In this document: piece after piece, positions 8,967-15,732 of the stretch
How the letters are laid out: every line of letters starts with the position of its first letter
How positions within the stretch are numbered: position 1 is the stretch's first letter
IMG/VR virus record: IMGVR_UViG_3300002514_000068
Location: 3,729-28,418 of that record
Source: a virus
Length of the DNA: 24,690 nucleotides
Direction: 5' to 3' (one strand)
Notes under the pieces: generated by a model
Database searches by the model: none
What the model was told of the DNA's origin: nothing
What the model saw: the letters and a program-made list of their open reading frames with translations, nothing else
Translations under genes and position numbers: made by a program

Positions 8967-10607
8967 CTACCCGAGGATGGCGGGCAGACCTTGGACAAGG
9001 ATAGTCCCGTAGTACTCAGCACGAAGCATCTGCTTCGCATACCGAGTCCTCAGACCCTTACGGAACGTGAAGTCGTCCGGGTCCAGGAACGTGGGAGTGA
9101 CCTGGAGCGGAATGTACGGTGCGTACACATAACCCGCGTCGAGGAAACTCGATCCCTTGAGACCAACCAGGATCCGCTTGGTCGTGGCCACGCCACCCAC
9201 ACCCTGCGAGTCCATGAACGGATCCTGATAGACGGCGAACTTGTTGAGCAGAGTGCCGAGACGCTGCACACCGAAGTTGCTGTTCATCGGCCCATAGCTC
9301 GGTGAGACAGGCTGTGTCTCGATCTGATTGATGTTCATGAAGTCGCCGTGAGTGGTCAGCTGAGCGAACAGCGCACCAATTTCGGGCGGAACAACAAGGA
9401 AGTTCGCCGGGGCACGCATGGAACCCGAGTGAATCTTCGAACTCATCGAGGAGATCGCGGTCAGCAGATCGCGGATCGCGCTCAATGAATCATTCTGGGT
9501 GTTGGCAACCCAGCCAAGAGGCTGAGCAGCAGACACGTCGTATGTAAAGCTCCACCGGGCACCGGTGATGAGATCGTCGATGATCTCACGGTCGAGTTCC
9601 AGGGCGATCTCGTTGGAGATGCCTGCAACCAACTCGGTCTCGGCGTTCAGACCGTGGAATGCCCGAAGGTCATCCACTGCCTCGGCAGACCAGCGAGCCT
9701 TGAGCTTCCTGGTGATCGCCGTGACGGTCGTCAGCGTGATGTCGATGTTGACTTCAGGGATAGCTGCCTGCTGTCCGAGAGTCATGTTGAAGGTCGTGGA
9801 GTCCACGCCCGCGCCCGGTGCCGTCGTGTTCGCGACAAGCTCCGAGTTGTAGAAGTACGTCGCCGTGATCGCATTGGCACCACCGGCTGGGAGATTCCCT
9901 GCGAGCAGGCCACCGACGTTCAACGTCCACGCGCCCGTCACGTAATTGATCGTACCAACGGCAGTTCCAACGTCAGCAGGGAACGAAGGCGCGGTTGCAA
10001 CCGCCAGGATGCCCGCTCCGTTGTCCGTGATCGTCACCGTTGTAGCGGTGGCGTCGAGATAACTGAAGGTCGTGAGTTGACCCTTGGTGTCATCCCTTGG
10101 GGCAACAGGCAACCAGCTGAACGGGGTGCGGTCAGTCGGGTTGACAGCGTTGTCCCATTGAGTGTTCGCGAGAGGCGTCAGGACCTTGGTCTCAAAGTCG
10201 ATGAACTCGCTGGAGTACCACTCGCTGAACGTCTGAATGAGGTTCTGGTTGGCAGTGATGTTGCCCTTGGTGTTCCCGTACTTGTACTCGTAGGTGAAGA
10301 TTCCACCCACAGGGGCCGTCATCGGCTGCACCGAGACAATCTGATTGGCGATGAGGTTCGGGAAGACGCGACGCAGAATCGGGAAGATGTACTTAGTGAA
10401 CGAGCCGACGCCCGTACTCAGGGTCTCCTCATTCAAGCCACGCAGATGATCCATCTGGTTCTCGAAAAGGATGCCCATCACGCCACGCTGGTAGGGGTTC
10501 TGGATGCCCTCAAGCATCGGTCCCCACTTTGTGGATACGGCATTTACAAAGGAGGTGTCCACGGCTGTCCGTGCCCCACCATTCTCGAGAAGTTTTCGCG
10601 CTTCCAT
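8967..10607 (-). CDS. Major capsid protein, T4 gp23-like
   Basis: The 546-aa protein starts at ATG 10607 with AGGAG eight bases upstream. It is the HK97-fold subunit of the shell in the T4 gp23 group. Near residues 70-115, TKYIFPILRRVFPNLIANQI and VSVQPMTAPVGGIFTYEYKYG match the conserved early region of gp23 relatives. Residues 190-275 are Ala/Thr/Gly-rich and look like an inserted surface domain. Residues 345-546 contain the remaining core, including PANFLVVPPEIGALF. Candidate prohead-protease sites near the N-terminus are L-F-E49 and L-N-E60, close to where T4 gp23 loses 65 residues. The gene directly follows the protease/scaffold gene, as in T4. Identity as capsid protein is secure; the cleavage site is inferred. 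Confidence 0.95.
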   Translation of the reverse strand: MEARKLLENGGARTAVDTSFVNAVSTKWGPMLEGIQNPYQRGVMGILFENQMDHLRGLNEETLSTGVGSFTKYIFPILRRVFPNLIANQIVSVQPMTAPVGGIFTYEYKYGNTKGNITANQNLIQTFSEWYSSEFIDFETKVLTPLANTQWDNAVNPTDRTPFSWLPVAPRDDTKGQLTTFSYLDATATTVTITDNGAGILAVATAPSFPADVGTAVGTINYVTGAWTLNVGGLLAGNLPAGGANAITATYFYNSELVANTTAPGAGVDSTTFNMTLGQQAAIPEVNIDITLTTVTAITRKLKARWSAEAVDDLRAFHGLNAETELVAGISNEIALELDREIIDDLITGARWSFTYDVSAAQPLGWVANTQNDSLSAIRDLLTAISSMSSKIHSGSMRAPANFLVVPPEIGALFAQLTTHGDFMNINQIETQPVSPSYGPMNSNFGVQRLGTLLNKFAVYQDPFMDSQGVGGVATTKRILVGLKGSSFLDAGYVYAPYIPLQVTPTFLDPDDFTFRKGLRTRYAKQMLRAEYYGTILVQGLPAILG

Positions 10608-10622
10608 GAGTTATCTCCTGAC

Positions 10623-12191
10623 TCAGTGCTTGTTGATCCCTGCGAGCGACCGGAAGTCACCCATGCTCATGTCACCAAATACGGATGCTGGACCGGCTTG
10701 TCGAGAATCATCTTCATTTAACGCTTCTGGCGTTTCTCGTGCCGCTCCGCGCAATCGATTGCGTATGCCTTCCAGGGACGAATCACGCATGGTCTTGCGT
10801 CCCGTCGTCCGTACGATCTTATCGACTGACTGCTCATCCGAAGCGCCCTCAAGGAGGTCCATGAGCCTGCTGGAGTTCGTAAACCCACGCGCCTTCTCAT
10901 TCTTGTACGCGCGCAAGGACGCCTCTTCTGCCAGTTCGCTGTTGCGAAGTGCCTCGGTGCGATAGTCCTCGCTGAGGTCCAACGCCTCATCCAACTTGGA
11001 CTTGAGAGACTTGATCTGGCGTCGGAGATTCTTCCGATCTGATTTCAGGTTGCTCAGCACACTTGCCTGCTCGTCGAGTTGAGCCTGCACCGTGGCGAGT
11101 TCATGATTGTCGTGCTCCTCAGCGAGACCTTCCATCTCACCCTTGAGGACCTCTACCCGGTCCCGAAGCTCTTCCAGGTCCTCGTAGCTTCCAGGATCTC
11201 CAATCAACTCGACGATCATGTCGTGTCGCGGATGACCCCCGATCGACTGCTCCAGCTGAGCACGGAAGATCGCCTGGCGCGCAACGCCCTTAGCCCGATC
11301 CATCTCCTCAGAGATCTTGGCAATCTCAAGGTCCTTGGCTTTGAGAGCATCCTTAGTCGCCTGAACGTCGCTGTTCTCTTCCTGGCGATAGTCGGAGACC
11401 ATCGATGCAATCTGAGCCAGCACAGCCTTGGATCCAGCGACATCCGGGTCCTCACACAGCTGCTCACGCACGGTGGCTTCCACCTCTTCCCGAAGCAGGG
11501 TCATGCGATCCACCAGGAGACGACCGAACTCATCACGGAGTTCGTCCTTCGCCTTGGCTCGCTCTACGACGAGCATGTCGTTCAGAGCGGTCTCGACCTT
11601 GTCTCGCTCGTCCTTGCGGAGTTCCTCAGCGAGGTCTGGAAAGGATTCCTCGAGAGACGCAGCGCAGAATATGTTGTCGTCTACGTCCTCAGTGAAGATG
11701 CCTGGGTAGGCCGACTTCATCGCTGGATCGGCGACAAAATCGAAGGTGCGGAGCATGAAGTCCTCACCGACGACCTGCTGACCAGCCTGTCCCTGCTTCG
11801 TTGAGCCAAAGCCACGGGAACTGACACCAACCTCGGCGTTCGCGTCGAGGATTGCCTTGAGGGTGCGACCATTGGGAGTGTCCAGGATCTCAGCCTCACC
11901 CATGACCACGCCATCACCGTCGATCGTCAACTTCGTGATCACATGACTCGCGCGCGTGAGCTTTGTCTTTCCGTCTGCTGGGTGGTCAAGCTCACCAAAA
12001 ACTCGGCGTTTACCAACATTCTCCTGGAGCTTCTTGATCTCACGCTCGTAGATAGGTCTCGGGTAGACGCGACCATTCTGAGTCGCAAGGTCCGCTCGGC
12101 CAAACTCGCCTCGCGCTACCGTCTTTCCGTTCGCGCCCTCGTCAAGCGAGAGACGAATCGGGAAGGCATCCATCAACAGTGTCTTGGTCAT
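10623..12191 (-). CDS. Prohead protease (gp21-like) fused to scaffold-like coiled coil
   Basis: The 522-aa protein starts at ATG 12191 with GGAAG five bases upstream. Residues 1-165 are a herpesvirus/T4-type prohead serine protease: H70 in GELDHP, the SHVITK strand, ILDTPNGRT, and S124/S125 in GVSSRGFGS. Such enzymes cut head proteins after (L/I)-x-E during maturation. Residues 180-435 are highly charged and helical (for example QLDEQASVLSNLKSDRKNLR) and look like a coiled-coil core scaffold, which in T4 is the separate protein gp22. Residues 436-522 form a mixed tail ending FRSLAGINKH. Fusion of protease and scaffold in one chain parallels lambda C/Nu3 and herpesvirus UL26. I saw no strong internal ribosome site that would make the scaffold part separately. 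Usual gp21 length is about 212. Confidence 0.93.
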   Translation of the reverse strand: MTKTLLMDAFPIRLSLDEGANGKTVARGEFGRADLATQNGRVYPRPIYEREIKKLQENVGKRRVFGELDHPADGKTKLTRASHVITKLTIDGDGVVMGEAEILDTPNGRTLKAILDANAEVGVSSRGFGSTKQGQAGQQVVGEDFMLRTFDFVADPAMKSAYPGIFTEDVDDNIFCAASLEESFPDLAEELRKDERDKVETALNDMLVVERAKAKDELRDEFGRLLVDRMTLLREEVEATVREQLCEDPDVAGSKAVLAQIASMVSDYRQEENSDVQATKDALKAKDLEIAKISEEMDRAKGVARQAIFRAQLEQSIGGHPRHDMIVELIGDPGSYEDLEELRDRVEVLKGEMEGLAEEHDNHELATVQAQLDEQASVLSNLKSDRKNLRRQIKSLKSKLDEALDLSEDYRTEALRNSELAEEASLRAYKNEKARGFTNSSRLMDLLEGASDEQSVDKIVRTTGRKTMRDSSLEGIRNRLRGAARETPEALNEDDSRQAGPASVFGDMSMGDFRSLAGINKH

Positions 12192-12394
12192 GCTTTCTTC
12201 CAGAACTTTGGCTTGAGCGGGGTTCGATCGTTGTGAAAGTAACCCAACTCAGTCCTTCGCTTGTGCTTCTTGCCTACCTTCCGGCTTGTCTTCTTCCCGC
12301 CAGGGTTCAGCGCCCCTTTGAGTGAGACGAGCCCCGCAAGTTCGCGACGACCGCTGGAGTAAGCGGTGCGCCTCTTGCGGGGCTCTTCCGTCAG
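12188..12394 (-). CDS. -1 frame extension of the core-like protein (68 codons)
   Basis: Reading on from the GGGAAAC heptamer in the -1 frame gives 68 codons before a TGA at 12190-12188. The peptide begins LTEEPRKRRTAYSSGRRELA and ends LKPKFWKKA; it is strongly basic, with KKTSRKVGKKHKRR in the middle. There is no ATG, GTG or suitably placed TTG in this frame, so it is most simply made by frameshifting from the gene that ends at 12391, giving a fusion of about 351 residues. A CTG at 12394, overlapping the TGA as CTGA behind a GAGG, is the alternative start for a free small basic protein. The final TGA overlaps the ATG of the protease gene, so ribosomes reading this frame end exactly at the next start. 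The frame has no stop and its amino-acid content matches the basic middle of the core protein, which supports real coding. Confidence 0.8.
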   Translation of the reverse strand: MTEEPRKRRTAYSSGRRELAGLVSLKGALNPGGKKTSRKVGKKHKRRTELGYFHNDRTPLKPKFWKKA

Positions 12395-12400
12395 TTTCCC
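12329..12400 (-). promoter_or_regulatory. -1 programmed ribosomal frameshift signal
   Basis: The coding strand has the slippery heptamer G-GGA-AAC at 12400-12394 in the correct zero-frame phase (last base of GAG, then GGA and AAC). The TGA stop follows at once. Eight bases after the heptamer, GAGCCCCGCAAG (12385-12374) pairs perfectly with CTTGCGGGGCTC (12340-12329). Inside the 33-base loop, ACCGCT (12367-12362) pairs with AGCGGT (12355-12350) around TACTCC. Heptamer, spacer of 5-9 and strong stem are the three known parts of -1 frameshift signals; lambda G-GT uses the close heptamer GGGAAAG. Confidence 0.85.
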
Positions 12401-13242
12401 TCAGTGTCCTCAATCTCTTCCAGGCACCGCTTGATCAGGTTCAGTGTGGGCCGGACTGCCGCGTCGAAGTCTTCTTCGCTCTCGTAGAGTCCTATGGTCA
12501 GGCTCTCAAAGCTCTCGCCAAGCACCTCATCGACGGCAACATCGTCGATCCACTCACTGATCAGGTCCATCACTCGACCGATTCGCTCGATGGTCTCAGC
12601 GAAGTCACCGTGATCGGTGTTCTCACTGAGAGACAGGGAGCGAAGCTCGTCAGCTAGACCAGTGTCCGTGGACAAGCCCCGACGTTTTCGGCGTCGGGCA
12701 AGGGTCTTGCCCCTGGTGCGAGCATACCTATCAGCTTTCGCCCCACCGGCACCGCGCATGTGGATCTCGCGCTTACGCTTCTTCTTCCTGCTTTCCCCAG
12801 CCGTGTACTTCTTGATCTTGCCCTTTACCGTATGGTAACCGGCTTGAGCCCGACGCAGGAACCCGCCCGTAGTCTTCTTGAGCTTCGCCCATCGAGCCTC
12901 CAGGAGATGAACTTCTTCCTCGGTGAGGGCTGGATTCATCACCAGCCTGTCCAAGCCCTCAAGGATGGCTTCAAGGTCTTCGTCTGAGAGACTCTCAAGG
13001 TCCAGGGCCTCAAGACGGTCCAGTAGTGTGTGATTGACGTATGGCGAGTTCAGAGGATCTTCCTCCTCAGCCACTTCCACGGGCTCGTCCTGCATCTTCG
13101 ACTTGAAGAGTTCGCCAGAGAAGAAAGCTCCCCCGTCGCTGCCCTCAGACAGGACCTTCAAATGGCTGGATGGTGCCACGCCGAGGGACTTCAATTCCTC
13201 GTCGAGGTCGGTATTCACTACTCGATTGGTGATGAGTGACAT
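12391..13242 (-). CDS. Charged prohead core-like protein, frameshift zero-frame product
   Basis: I start at ATG 13242, with GGGAG six bases upstream; the frame extends to 13332 but would run into the upstream gene. The 283 residues divide into an acidic helical part (1-115, for example LDRLEALDLESLSDEDLEAI), a very basic part (119-190, with SRKKKRKREIHMRG and LARRRKRRGL) and a second acidic helical part (195-283, ending EEIEDTEGN). The place between portal and protease, and the charge pattern, fit a prohead core component comparable to T4 gp67/gp68, though I see no direct match. L-D-E15 near the N-terminus is a possible prohead-protease site. The stop sits on a -1 frameshift signal, so a longer, basic-tailed form is also expected. 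Confidence 0.85.
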   Translation of the reverse strand: MSLITNRVVNTDLDEELKSLGVAPSSHLKVLSEGSDGGAFFSGELFKSKMQDEPVEVAEEEDPLNSPYVNHTLLDRLEALDLESLSDEDLEAILEGLDRLVMNPALTEEEVHLLEARWAKLKKTTGGFLRRAQAGYHTVKGKIKKYTAGESRKKKRKREIHMRGAGGAKADRYARTRGKTLARRRKRRGLSTDTGLADELRSLSLSENTDHGDFAETIERIGRVMDLISEWIDDVAVDEVLGESFESLTIGLYESEEDFDAAVRPTLNLIKRCLEEIEDTEGN

Positions 13243-13252
13243 CGAATTCTCC

Positions 13253-14041
13253 CTAGTCGTCGATGGAAATGTACTCGGCCATGACCAAGAGGTCGCGCAT
13301 ACGATCGCACGACCTATCCAAGATTGTTGCAAATTCCTTCATGTGAACTGTTCCACACGTCTCTTTCAAACCTGTCAGAGCCTCTCTGAGGTTCTGAGCA
13401 TCGTCGATCAAAGAGGATCCGAACCCCTCTTCGCTCGAGTCGGTTGAGTCTATTGCGTCCGCTACCTCTGTGGCAAGAGAACAAATCGTGTCAACCACTT
13501 CGATCATCTGAGCACGATATTCCTGGCAGTCTCCACGCAGCCGCGAGAAACGACGGGACGGAACTTTGCCCTCAGTCACACCCAGCTTGCCGTGGCAAGC
13601 CTTGCGGACATCAGCCCGATTCTCAGCGTAATACAGACTCCACTCCCGGTCCCCGGTGGCGCTCTCGCCAAGGGCGATGTAGTCGGTCGCAAAGTAGGTG
13701 TCGTCTGTCTTCACCAGAGGTACCAATCCACTCAGGTTGACGGGTGCGCCCTCCCAGATGGCGTCAACAGCACTCAGAATAGACCTGCCAAGCACAAAGT
13801 TGAGATTCGACTCGTCGTGACTCTTGATTCCAGCACTGGCTTCATCACCGAACTCAATGCCGTCATCACCTTTTGTCCAGGAACGGTTGAAGATCCCGCC
13901 CTCACGCTCGTACACCACCCGGTCAGGGAAGGTCGCGATGGTCACTGTTCCATGTGGCATCGCAGCGTCCACTTGCGCGGATTGGTGCTCGTAGCTGCCT
14001 GCCAATGCCTGGCTCAATTCATGGGTGTCGATAAAGCTCAT
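13253..14041 (-). CDS. Unknown 262-aa protein between portal and core genes
   Basis: The start is ATG 14041, overlapping the portal stop as ATGA. Residues 25-150 look like a beta-rich domain (HGTVTIATFPDRVVYEREGG, then an acidic loop with WTKGDDGIEFGDEASAG), and residues 165-262 are helical with four of the protein's five cysteines (for example MIEVVDTICSLATEVADAI). No signal peptide or membrane segment is visible. Its position in the portal-core interval, where T4 has small core genes, makes a head-assembly role likely, but no family is recognised and T4 has no clear counterpart of this size. Coding is secure. Confidence 0.85.
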   Translation of the reverse strand: MSFIDTHELSQALAGSYEHQSAQVDAAMPHGTVTIATFPDRVVYEREGGIFNRSWTKGDDGIEFGDEASAGIKSHDESNLNFVLGRSILSAVDAIWEGAPVNLSGLVPLVKTDDTYFATDYIALGESATGDREWSLYYAENRADVRKACHGKLGVTEGKVPSRRFSRLRGDCQEYRAQMIEVVDTICSLATEVADAIDSTDSSEEGFGSSLIDDAQNLREALTGLKETCGTVHMKEFATILDRSCDRMRDLLVMAEYISIDD

Positions 14042-15732
14042 GCCGATCTCCTTCGGAACAGTCCCTCTACTACTTTCACGCGCTTTGCGCTATCCCGCAA
14101 CCCGGTTCCCACCGCTTCTAGGCTTTGCTCGATCCTATCTGAGGCGGCTGTGATCTCATCCAAGGCACCAGAGAGCCCCTCCAGACGGGATTCAAACGCC
14201 ACCTCTTTGGGCGTTGTCGGAAGCCCTGGCTCTTTGGGAAGCATGCCAGCCTGAGCCTGCATGCCCATAGCCTCTGGGAACTGCGTGATAAGCTCTTGCG
14301 TCAACGCCGTCTGAGTCCTCTGCTCCATCCTGGCTTCGTCCTCTTTCTCCTGAGCGAGCGCCTGTGCGACTTCTTCACTGAAGTCGAACACGTGACTGAT
14401 TACCCAGTTACGCGGGAAGAACTCAAGCAGACGTGTGGCGTTGTCAGCTTGTGCGTTCCTGAGTTCGATCTGTGCCAACTCAAAGATGGCACTCGGCACA
14501 CTCATCCTGATCTCAAACTCAATCTCGTCGGGGTCAATCCCGAGAAGAGCGAGGTGGATTCTCGATACCCTTCGAATTCCGTTTCTGATCTCCCGCTGGA
14601 TCCTCATCACACTACGGGCGAAACGGACATCCTCTTGAGACAGGGCGGCTCTGCTCGTCTCGCCAGCCAGTCCCAGATAAGACGCTGGCACCTTGATCGC
14701 GCTGAACAGCTTCGACCGGAAGTACTCCAGATCCTCGACAGCCTGGTAGTCTGGACCGCTGATGACCTCGATCCTGGTTGAGTCCTGCCCCGCCCTTGAA
14801 GGGACCCAGAAATCCTCTTGCGCGTTGAGGGGATTCATTCGGAACTCGAGCTTCTTGGTGCTCGTGTTGAACAGCTTCCGCTTCTTAAACTGCTGCTTGA
14901 CCTGGTTGACGTATGAAATCGCTTGCGCGGGAGGCAGATCGCCCACGTCCACGTAGAAGGCGTATCTGGCTGGAGATCGAGTCAGCTTGTAGACAAGGGC
15001 TGAGTCCTCAGCCATCACCAGGCGTCGCCAGATCCAACGTGCGGGCTCCAGAACGCTATGTCCGTACTCGGAGCCAACGTCCCGACCCTGGAGTCGCCAG
15101 TTGACCACCTCCCAAGGCTCAAAAACGATCAACTTGTCAATGGTCTTCTTGCCGCTCTCGATCGCCTTCTTGACCTCCTCCCGGCTTACCGCAAAGCCCC
15201 CTGTGGGGTCCTGTACATAGCCGATGAGGACACCGTTCTTCTCTTCGACCCTTCGCATGGTCGCCGGTGGAAGATAGCTCCAACCCAGAACTCCTGATTC
15301 GTCCGCGATCACCTCGGCGTAGCAGTTGCCGTACTTGGTCAGGGTCCTGGCCAGCACATACACCGTCTCGTCGAGCTTCAACCTCTTGTAGAAGAGGTCC
15401 TCCAGGGCGGCTCTGGACGCCAAATCCTTGGACGTGGGCCACACCGACTTCCCGGTCATGGAGTCCGGGATCGTCGCGTCATCTGCATAGATGTCTATCG
15501 CGCTCCCGATCTCCGGGTAGTCATCCATCTCCTCGTAGTCCGCGAACCGCTGCATGAGCGTTTGCTCAAGGCGAAGGGACTGACTCAGAGTGTCGTAACC
15601 GTCGAGGTAATTGTAGAGGGAGTTCTCAGGCGTGACGAAGTTCTCGCCTCGTCTGAGCTTGTCCACCTGCTTCTCAGGTGTGTTGGCGAACAATGCCCTG
15701 ATCTTTCCGGCTATGTCGTTCGCAAAGCCCAT
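14038..15732 (-). CDS. Portal protein, T4 gp20-like
   Basis: The 564-aa protein starts at ATG 15732, three bases after the terminase stop. It forms the dodecameric ring at the packaging vertex. The features agree with gp20 relatives: the early segment YEEMDDYPEIGSAIDIYADD, the clip-region pattern GNCYAEVIADESGVLGWSYL, IVFEPWEVVNWRLQG with GHSVLEPARWIWRRL, then RSPARYAFYVDVGDLPPAQA and the later LEYFRSKLFSAIKVPASYLG. The final 80 residues are a Glu/Gln/Ala-rich helical tail that includes a predicted coil (LEGLSGALDEITAASDRIEQ). Length is close to T4 gp20 (524). It sits between terminase and core genes as expected. Identity is firm. Confidence 0.95.
   Translation of the reverse strand: MGFANDIAGKIRALFANTPEKQVDKLRRGENFVTPENSLYNYLDGYDTLSQSLRLEQTLMQRFADYEEMDDYPEIGSAIDIYADDATIPDSMTGKSVWPTSKDLASRAALEDLFYKRLKLDETVYVLARTLTKYGNCYAEVIADESGVLGWSYLPPATMRRVEEKNGVLIGYVQDPTGGFAVSREEVKKAIESGKKTIDKLIVFEPWEVVNWRLQGRDVGSEYGHSVLEPARWIWRRLVMAEDSALVYKLTRSPARYAFYVDVGDLPPAQAISYVNQVKQQFKKRKLFNTSTKKLEFRMNPLNAQEDFWVPSRAGQDSTRIEVISGPDYQAVEDLEYFRSKLFSAIKVPASYLGLAGETSRAALSQEDVRFARSVMRIQREIRNGIRRVSRIHLALLGIDPDEIEFEIRMSVPSAIFELAQIELRNAQADNATRLLEFFPRNWVISHVFDFSEEVAQALAQEKEDEARMEQRTQTALTQELITQFPEAMGMQAQAGMLPKEPGLPTTPKEVAFESRLEGLSGALDEITAASDRIEQSLEAVGTGLRDSAKRVKVVEGLFRRRSA

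Follow-up and report, generated by a model that had tools for sequence, protein, structure and literature searches.

The window analysed here, a stretch of 24,690 b taken from a virus record of 41,753 b, carries its genes on the minus strand and raises the question of whether a probable prohead-core gene of a T4-like phage yields two proteins, one of them through programmed ribosomal frameshifting. The order of genes assigned with PHROGs is that of a T4-type head module: terminase, portal, a 262-aa gene, a 283-aa gene, head maturation protease and major head protein (Table 1). The zero frame of the 283-aa gene ends in GAC ACT GAG GGA AAC TGA, and an earlier note on this DNA had described at this point a G-GGA-AAC heptamer with a TGA next to it, an 8-base spacer, a 12-bp stem with a nested 6-bp hairpin and a 68-codon open -1 frame. 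All of these elements were confirmed, with coordinates on the minus strand. The window showed no DNA similarity to phages and holds no tRNA genes within its 24,690 b.

Table 1. Features of the head module and of the candidate frameshift site (positions in the window).
Feature	Position	Strand	Evidence or detail
T4 gp20-like portal	14038..15732	(-)	phrog_213, E 4e-61
Zero-frame prohead-core-like gene, 283 aa	12394..13242, ATG at 13242	(-)	between portal and protease; homologues aligned
-1-frame TGA directly 5' of the heptamer	12401..12403	(-)	
Slippery heptamer G_GGA_AAC, zero-frame phase, zero-frame TGA directly next	12394..12400	(-)	also found in phase close to the stop, in 33 distinct upstream genes
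Zero-frame TGA, stop of the 283-aa protein	12391..12393	(-)	
Candidate stimulatory stem-loop, 8 nt after the heptamer (spacer 12393-12386)	12329..12385	(-)	perfect 12-bp stem (12385-12374 / 12340-12329) with nested 6-bp hairpin (12367-12362 / 12355-12350)
-1-frame extension, 68 codons, LTEEPRKRRTAYSSGRREL...KFWKKA, strongly basic	12191..12394	(-)	73 distinct homologues; frame open 12394-12191, its TGA (12190-12188) overlapping the protease ATG (12191) as ATGA
T4 gp21-like head maturation protease, scaffold-like C-terminal part	10623..12191	(-)	phrog_207, E 3e-46; tblastn to T4-like proteases
T4 gp23-like major capsid protein (context)	8967..10607	(-)	phrog_138, E 1e-63

The geometry of the site is that of -1 programmed frameshifting: an X_XXY_YYZ heptamer lies in the zero-frame phase within the overlap of both frames, a structure follows at a distance of 5-9 nt (in the window the 12 bp at 8 nt, though such a structure is not universal in relatives), and the site and the -1 frame are conserved in relatives. 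Because a -1-frame TGA precedes GGG and the zero-frame TGA follows the heptamer, any slip is confined to TGA-GGGAAAC-TGA. The stem folds at -47 kcal/mol (z -4.0 against dinucleotide shuffles); against sequences with synonymously randomised codons and an unchanged -1-frame protein, its z of -4.46 is the strongest among 42 sites. No intrinsic terminator was found at the stem, where a T run is absent, and Rfam gave no match. The reading frames give predicted products of 283 aa (zero frame) and 351 aa (frameshifted), in agreement with the short form and the basic-tailed form that the earlier note had anticipated.

To place the site among relatives (related viral loci compared with the window are labelled with L-numbers, such as L001 and L120), we searched with the tail protein, which gave 10 further viral loci, and with the portal, which gave 80 loci in all. 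A profile of the tail is present in about 70 of the 80 portal loci, and a further scan yielded 53 loci on partly shared contigs. Almost all of the 73 distinct tail homologues are on uncultured viral contigs, 5' next to an ORF in the protease position, and the tail stands in a -1 relation to the upstream gene in nearly all loci. It is a basic domain with the motif RRTAYSSGRREL, the pattern R-x-R-R-T-A-Y-S-S-G-R-R-E ... W being nearly invariant, and its median net charge is +14, whereas the 60 C-terminal residues of the zero-frame product have a median of -14.5. Close pairs differ in the tail frame at 170, 71 and 449 sites of codon positions 1, 2 and 3, respectively, a distribution indicating that the tail evolves as a protein under purifying selection with strong protein-level constraint, as the frameshift reading in the earlier note had called for. 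The near-identical sister locus L001 differs by a single base in the tail region, a CCC to CCT change that is synonymous in the -1 frame and retains the stem as a G-U pair. We found no relatives of the tail in the cultured phages of the collection or in bacterial and archaeal genomes; the domain is absent from the nearest cultured portal phages (Microcystis phage Mel-JY01, the Flavobacterium immuto phages and Bacillus SP-15) and also from two huge metagenomic phages. The structure model of the tail is poor (pLDDT 60). Two divergent members, L022:7274-8323 and L053:7824-8891, were missed by the tail profile, and their upstream genes likewise end with in-phase GGGAAAC and CCCTTTT.

The heptamer itself recurs at the same place. 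An in-phase X_XXY_YYZ lies no more than 3 codons from the stop in 39 of 64 distinct upstream genes and in 6 of 384 controls (Fisher p 1e-32), counts that, the loci being related, represent non-independent events. The controls are 384 other genes in the same loci, from which duplicates and extra members of the same family were removed (27/434 with those included), and in the two other phases of the same upstream genes the pattern occurs 1 and 0 times. Seven loci with in-phase heptamers farther upstream in the overlap (L041, L045, L049, L033, L031, L063 and L066) were left out of the heptamer counts. Among 43 hits GGGAAAC is the most frequent form (34), followed by CCCTTTC (4), GGGAAAA (2) and one each of AAAAAAA, AAACCCT and GGGGGGC. 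On the portal tree AAAAAAA is a neighbour of GGGAAAC, GGGAAAA falls within a GGGAAAC clade, and CCCTTTC, found in one clade, sits next to a GGGAAAC member, a pattern indicating that the heptamer is replaced between neighbours without loss of the -1 relation. All 33 distinct GGGAAAC members have a G at the end of the codon that precedes GGA, although the residue encoded there may be E, S, L, M, Q, V or A. The Gly of the heptamer is always GGA, whereas GGA accounts for 9.5% of the Gly codons in the rest of these genes. The invariant G and the invariant rare GGA, despite the varying residue, imply that selection acts on the RNA rather than on the protein. The proposal of a -1 programmed frameshift thus gains support, since the heptamer and the -1 frame are found again in very distant relatives and the heptamer is swapped in some lineages.

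Conservation of the stem holds in part. At 22 of 42 sites a helix of 6 bp or longer follows after a spacer of 5-9 nt, whereas synonymous recoding predicts 8.1 (sd 2.5), and over the 42 sites the fold z has a mean of -1.19, with 11 below -2; one clade (L013-L024), however, has no clear stem. In L003 the stem pairs in a register 3 nt off that of the window, so that what is shared is a like-placed stem, not column-by-column covariation.

The earlier note had counted as evidence against frameshifting any relatives that keep the -1 frame without heptamer or stem, and a minority of relatives does so, several of which are accounted for by a tail that starts on a codon of its own. The canonical heptamer is missing in L060, L131 and five further loci (L037, L054, L099, L113 and L126); these five have in its place CCT followed by ACC or ATC near the zero-frame stop, where a slip of a single proline tRNA is possible. 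In L032 (9303-9521) the ORF upstream of the tail has 500 aa and the frame relation is +1/-2, at GCG CCC TTT CGG, an arrangement that could reflect a +1 or -2 shift or a sequence error.

The same note had also named a tail with its own start codon as a refutation, and this leads to the reading in which the tail is a separate protein, initiated by ribosomes that terminate upstream and restart on a non-AUG codon overlapping the stop (the CTG in AAC-TGA). The tail-frame codon across the stop is indeed CTG in 18 of 39 sites, and a minority of loci, judged by sequence, have an ATG or GTG of their own: L004, L005, L011 and L012, and also L120, L123, L127 and L130, where a separate tail gene starts on an ATG or GTG overlapping the upstream stop, often as ATGA or GTGA, in the same -1 relation. 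In those last four loci that relation would be reached by reinitiation. In 19 of the 39 sites, however, the codon across the stop is GTA, CTA, ATA or TTA and the heptamer is kept nonetheless, no ATG, GTG or TTG precedes the tail motif in 31 of 39, and reinitiation would select neither the G before GGA nor a swap to CCCTTTC or AAAAAAA; as a general account of the family we consider it improbable. Since an ATGA overlap already places the two frames in a -1 relation, a lineage could move from reinitiation to frameshifting, or back, with no change of frame.

A different view accepts the shift and makes the tail a by-product, the main role being to bring ribosomes to the start codon of the protease. 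In 37 loci the stop of the tail overlaps the next start codon or lies directly against it (-4 or -1 nt), and in most the distance is no more than 4 nt, so ribosomes that have shifted frame could go on to translate the protease. Gaps of 8-35 nt before the downstream start in some loci, the constraint on the tail as a protein and its existence as an independent gene in other lineages argue against this as the main role, which we regard as unlikely. Artefacts fare far worse. The contigs are all metagenomic, so that a sequencing or assembly error might have divided one long gene, but the same -1 relation and slippery site occur in dozens of distinct contigs from many metagenomes, and the stop codon of the GGGAAAC class varies (TGA 19, TAG 7, TAA 5); the independent contigs refute such an error, and we give it almost no weight. 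Slippage of the polymerase in place of the ribosome could be envisaged for L079, with its seven consecutive A. Runs of three are too short for polymerase slippage, and GGGAAAC and CCCTTTC have runs of three only, which disfavours this reading, while in-phase tandem heptamers with downstream stems are hallmarks of ribosomal slippage; a transcriptional origin is extremely improbable.

We conclude that -1 programmed ribosomal frameshifting very probably operates at this locus, within a gene that probably encodes a prohead-core protein, and is conserved in a large group of uncultured T4-like phages. The heptamer, the stop, the stem, the open -1 frame with its signature of purifying selection and the conservation of the arrangement through heptamer turnover can be read from the sequences, and we infer that ribosomes slip, how efficiently they do so and what the products do. 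Ribosomes with GGA AAC in the P and A sites would pause at the downstream stem, and the P- and A-site tRNAs would slip simultaneously; a fraction would re-pair on GGG AAA and continue to the 351-aa product, and ribosomes that do not slip would terminate at the adjacent TGA to give the 283-aa protein. The minor extended form would have a tail, basic and probably disordered, attached to a protein whose end is an acidic tract in most relatives, and would enter the prohead core through the shared N-terminal part in sub-stoichiometric amount, following the logic of Gag-Pol. Frameshifted ribosomes would finish at the protease start codon, and the shift may help to set protease synthesis. More tentatively, the slippage rate might act as a single dial, setting both the dose of tail-bearing core protein and, by way of the ATGA overlap, how many ribosomes reach the maturation protease, in which case core, tail and protease would be synthesised in defined proportions ahead of prohead closure, with lineages swapping the frameshift for ATGA/GTGA reinitiation in the same -1 relation.

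The assignment of the 283-aa gene to the prohead core, which the earlier note had made, stands on gene order and charge, and we regard it as probable. The gene lies between homologues of gp20 and gp21, as do genes 67 and 68 of T4 (order gp20 - 67 - 68 - gp21), and T4 gp67 ends acidic and gp68 basic, like the acidic zero-frame end and the basic tail here. The assignment found no backing in families or folds: neither product has a significant PHROGs or Pfam match, the 283-aa protein has no phage matches, its mostly helical, low-confidence structure model (67) gave no Foldseek match, and comparison of the products with T4 gp68 by hhalign and BLASTP gave nothing. Unlike the frames described here, gp67 and gp68 are separate genes with their own starts, and neither of our products matches gp68. 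The T4 core proteins are present in about 340 (gp67) and 240 (gp68) copies and are destroyed by gp21 (PMC9958956), so the products here may likewise be degraded in the prohead and be absent from the mature virion. Near their N termini the aligned zero-frame proteins have in common a short motif, T-T-L-E-E-D-F-x-x-I-G-L, which resembles a T4-type L/I-x-E protease site or a capsid-targeting peptide. Between the window (12391-13242) and L001 (2947-3897) the ends of the gene are near-identical and the middle (about residues 60-190) is unrelated, a pattern indicating a module swap inside the core gene.

As in the lambda G/GT-type tail assembly chaperones, ribosomes would here slip by -1 at a heptamer of the G_GGA_AAG type, close to where the upstream gene ends, and give a minor, C-terminally extended morphogenesis protein. 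The G/GT genes, however, lie just 5' of the tape measure in the tail module, whereas this gene lies between portal and protease, within a head module of T4-like type, and its products are unrelated in sequence to any PHROG family. G_GGA_AAC is the shift site of g-t in the haloarchaeal virus HCTV-1 (PMC5009743). It is also strong for mammalian ribosomes; in the bacterial host here its efficiency may differ. Frameshifting has been described for tail chaperone genes and also for major coat genes, with -1 shifts in T7/T3, A2 and A118/A500 and a +1 shift in PSA (PMC5009743). As here, those of T7/T3 gene 10, Lactobacillus A2 and Listeria A118/A500/PSA give a head-structure protein a minor, C-terminally extended form (PMC5009743), but there it is the major coat protein that is lengthened, in several cases with an Ig-like domain, and here a basic tail would extend a probable internal core protein. 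In agreement with the earlier note, which knew of no frameshift in a gene between portal and prohead protease, we found no description of one in a prohead core gene in the open-access literature, and recoding in this gene of T4-like phages seems new to the literature.

Ordinary gene callers would miss the 68-aa domain, and the annotation of the locus is corrected accordingly for two products that match no PHROG family. A single locus shows natural turnover among several slippery heptamers and own-start translation. The localisation rules and structure of the T4-type prohead core are still described as unresolved (PMC9958956), and it is into this internal core that conserved programmed frameshifting would now be extended.
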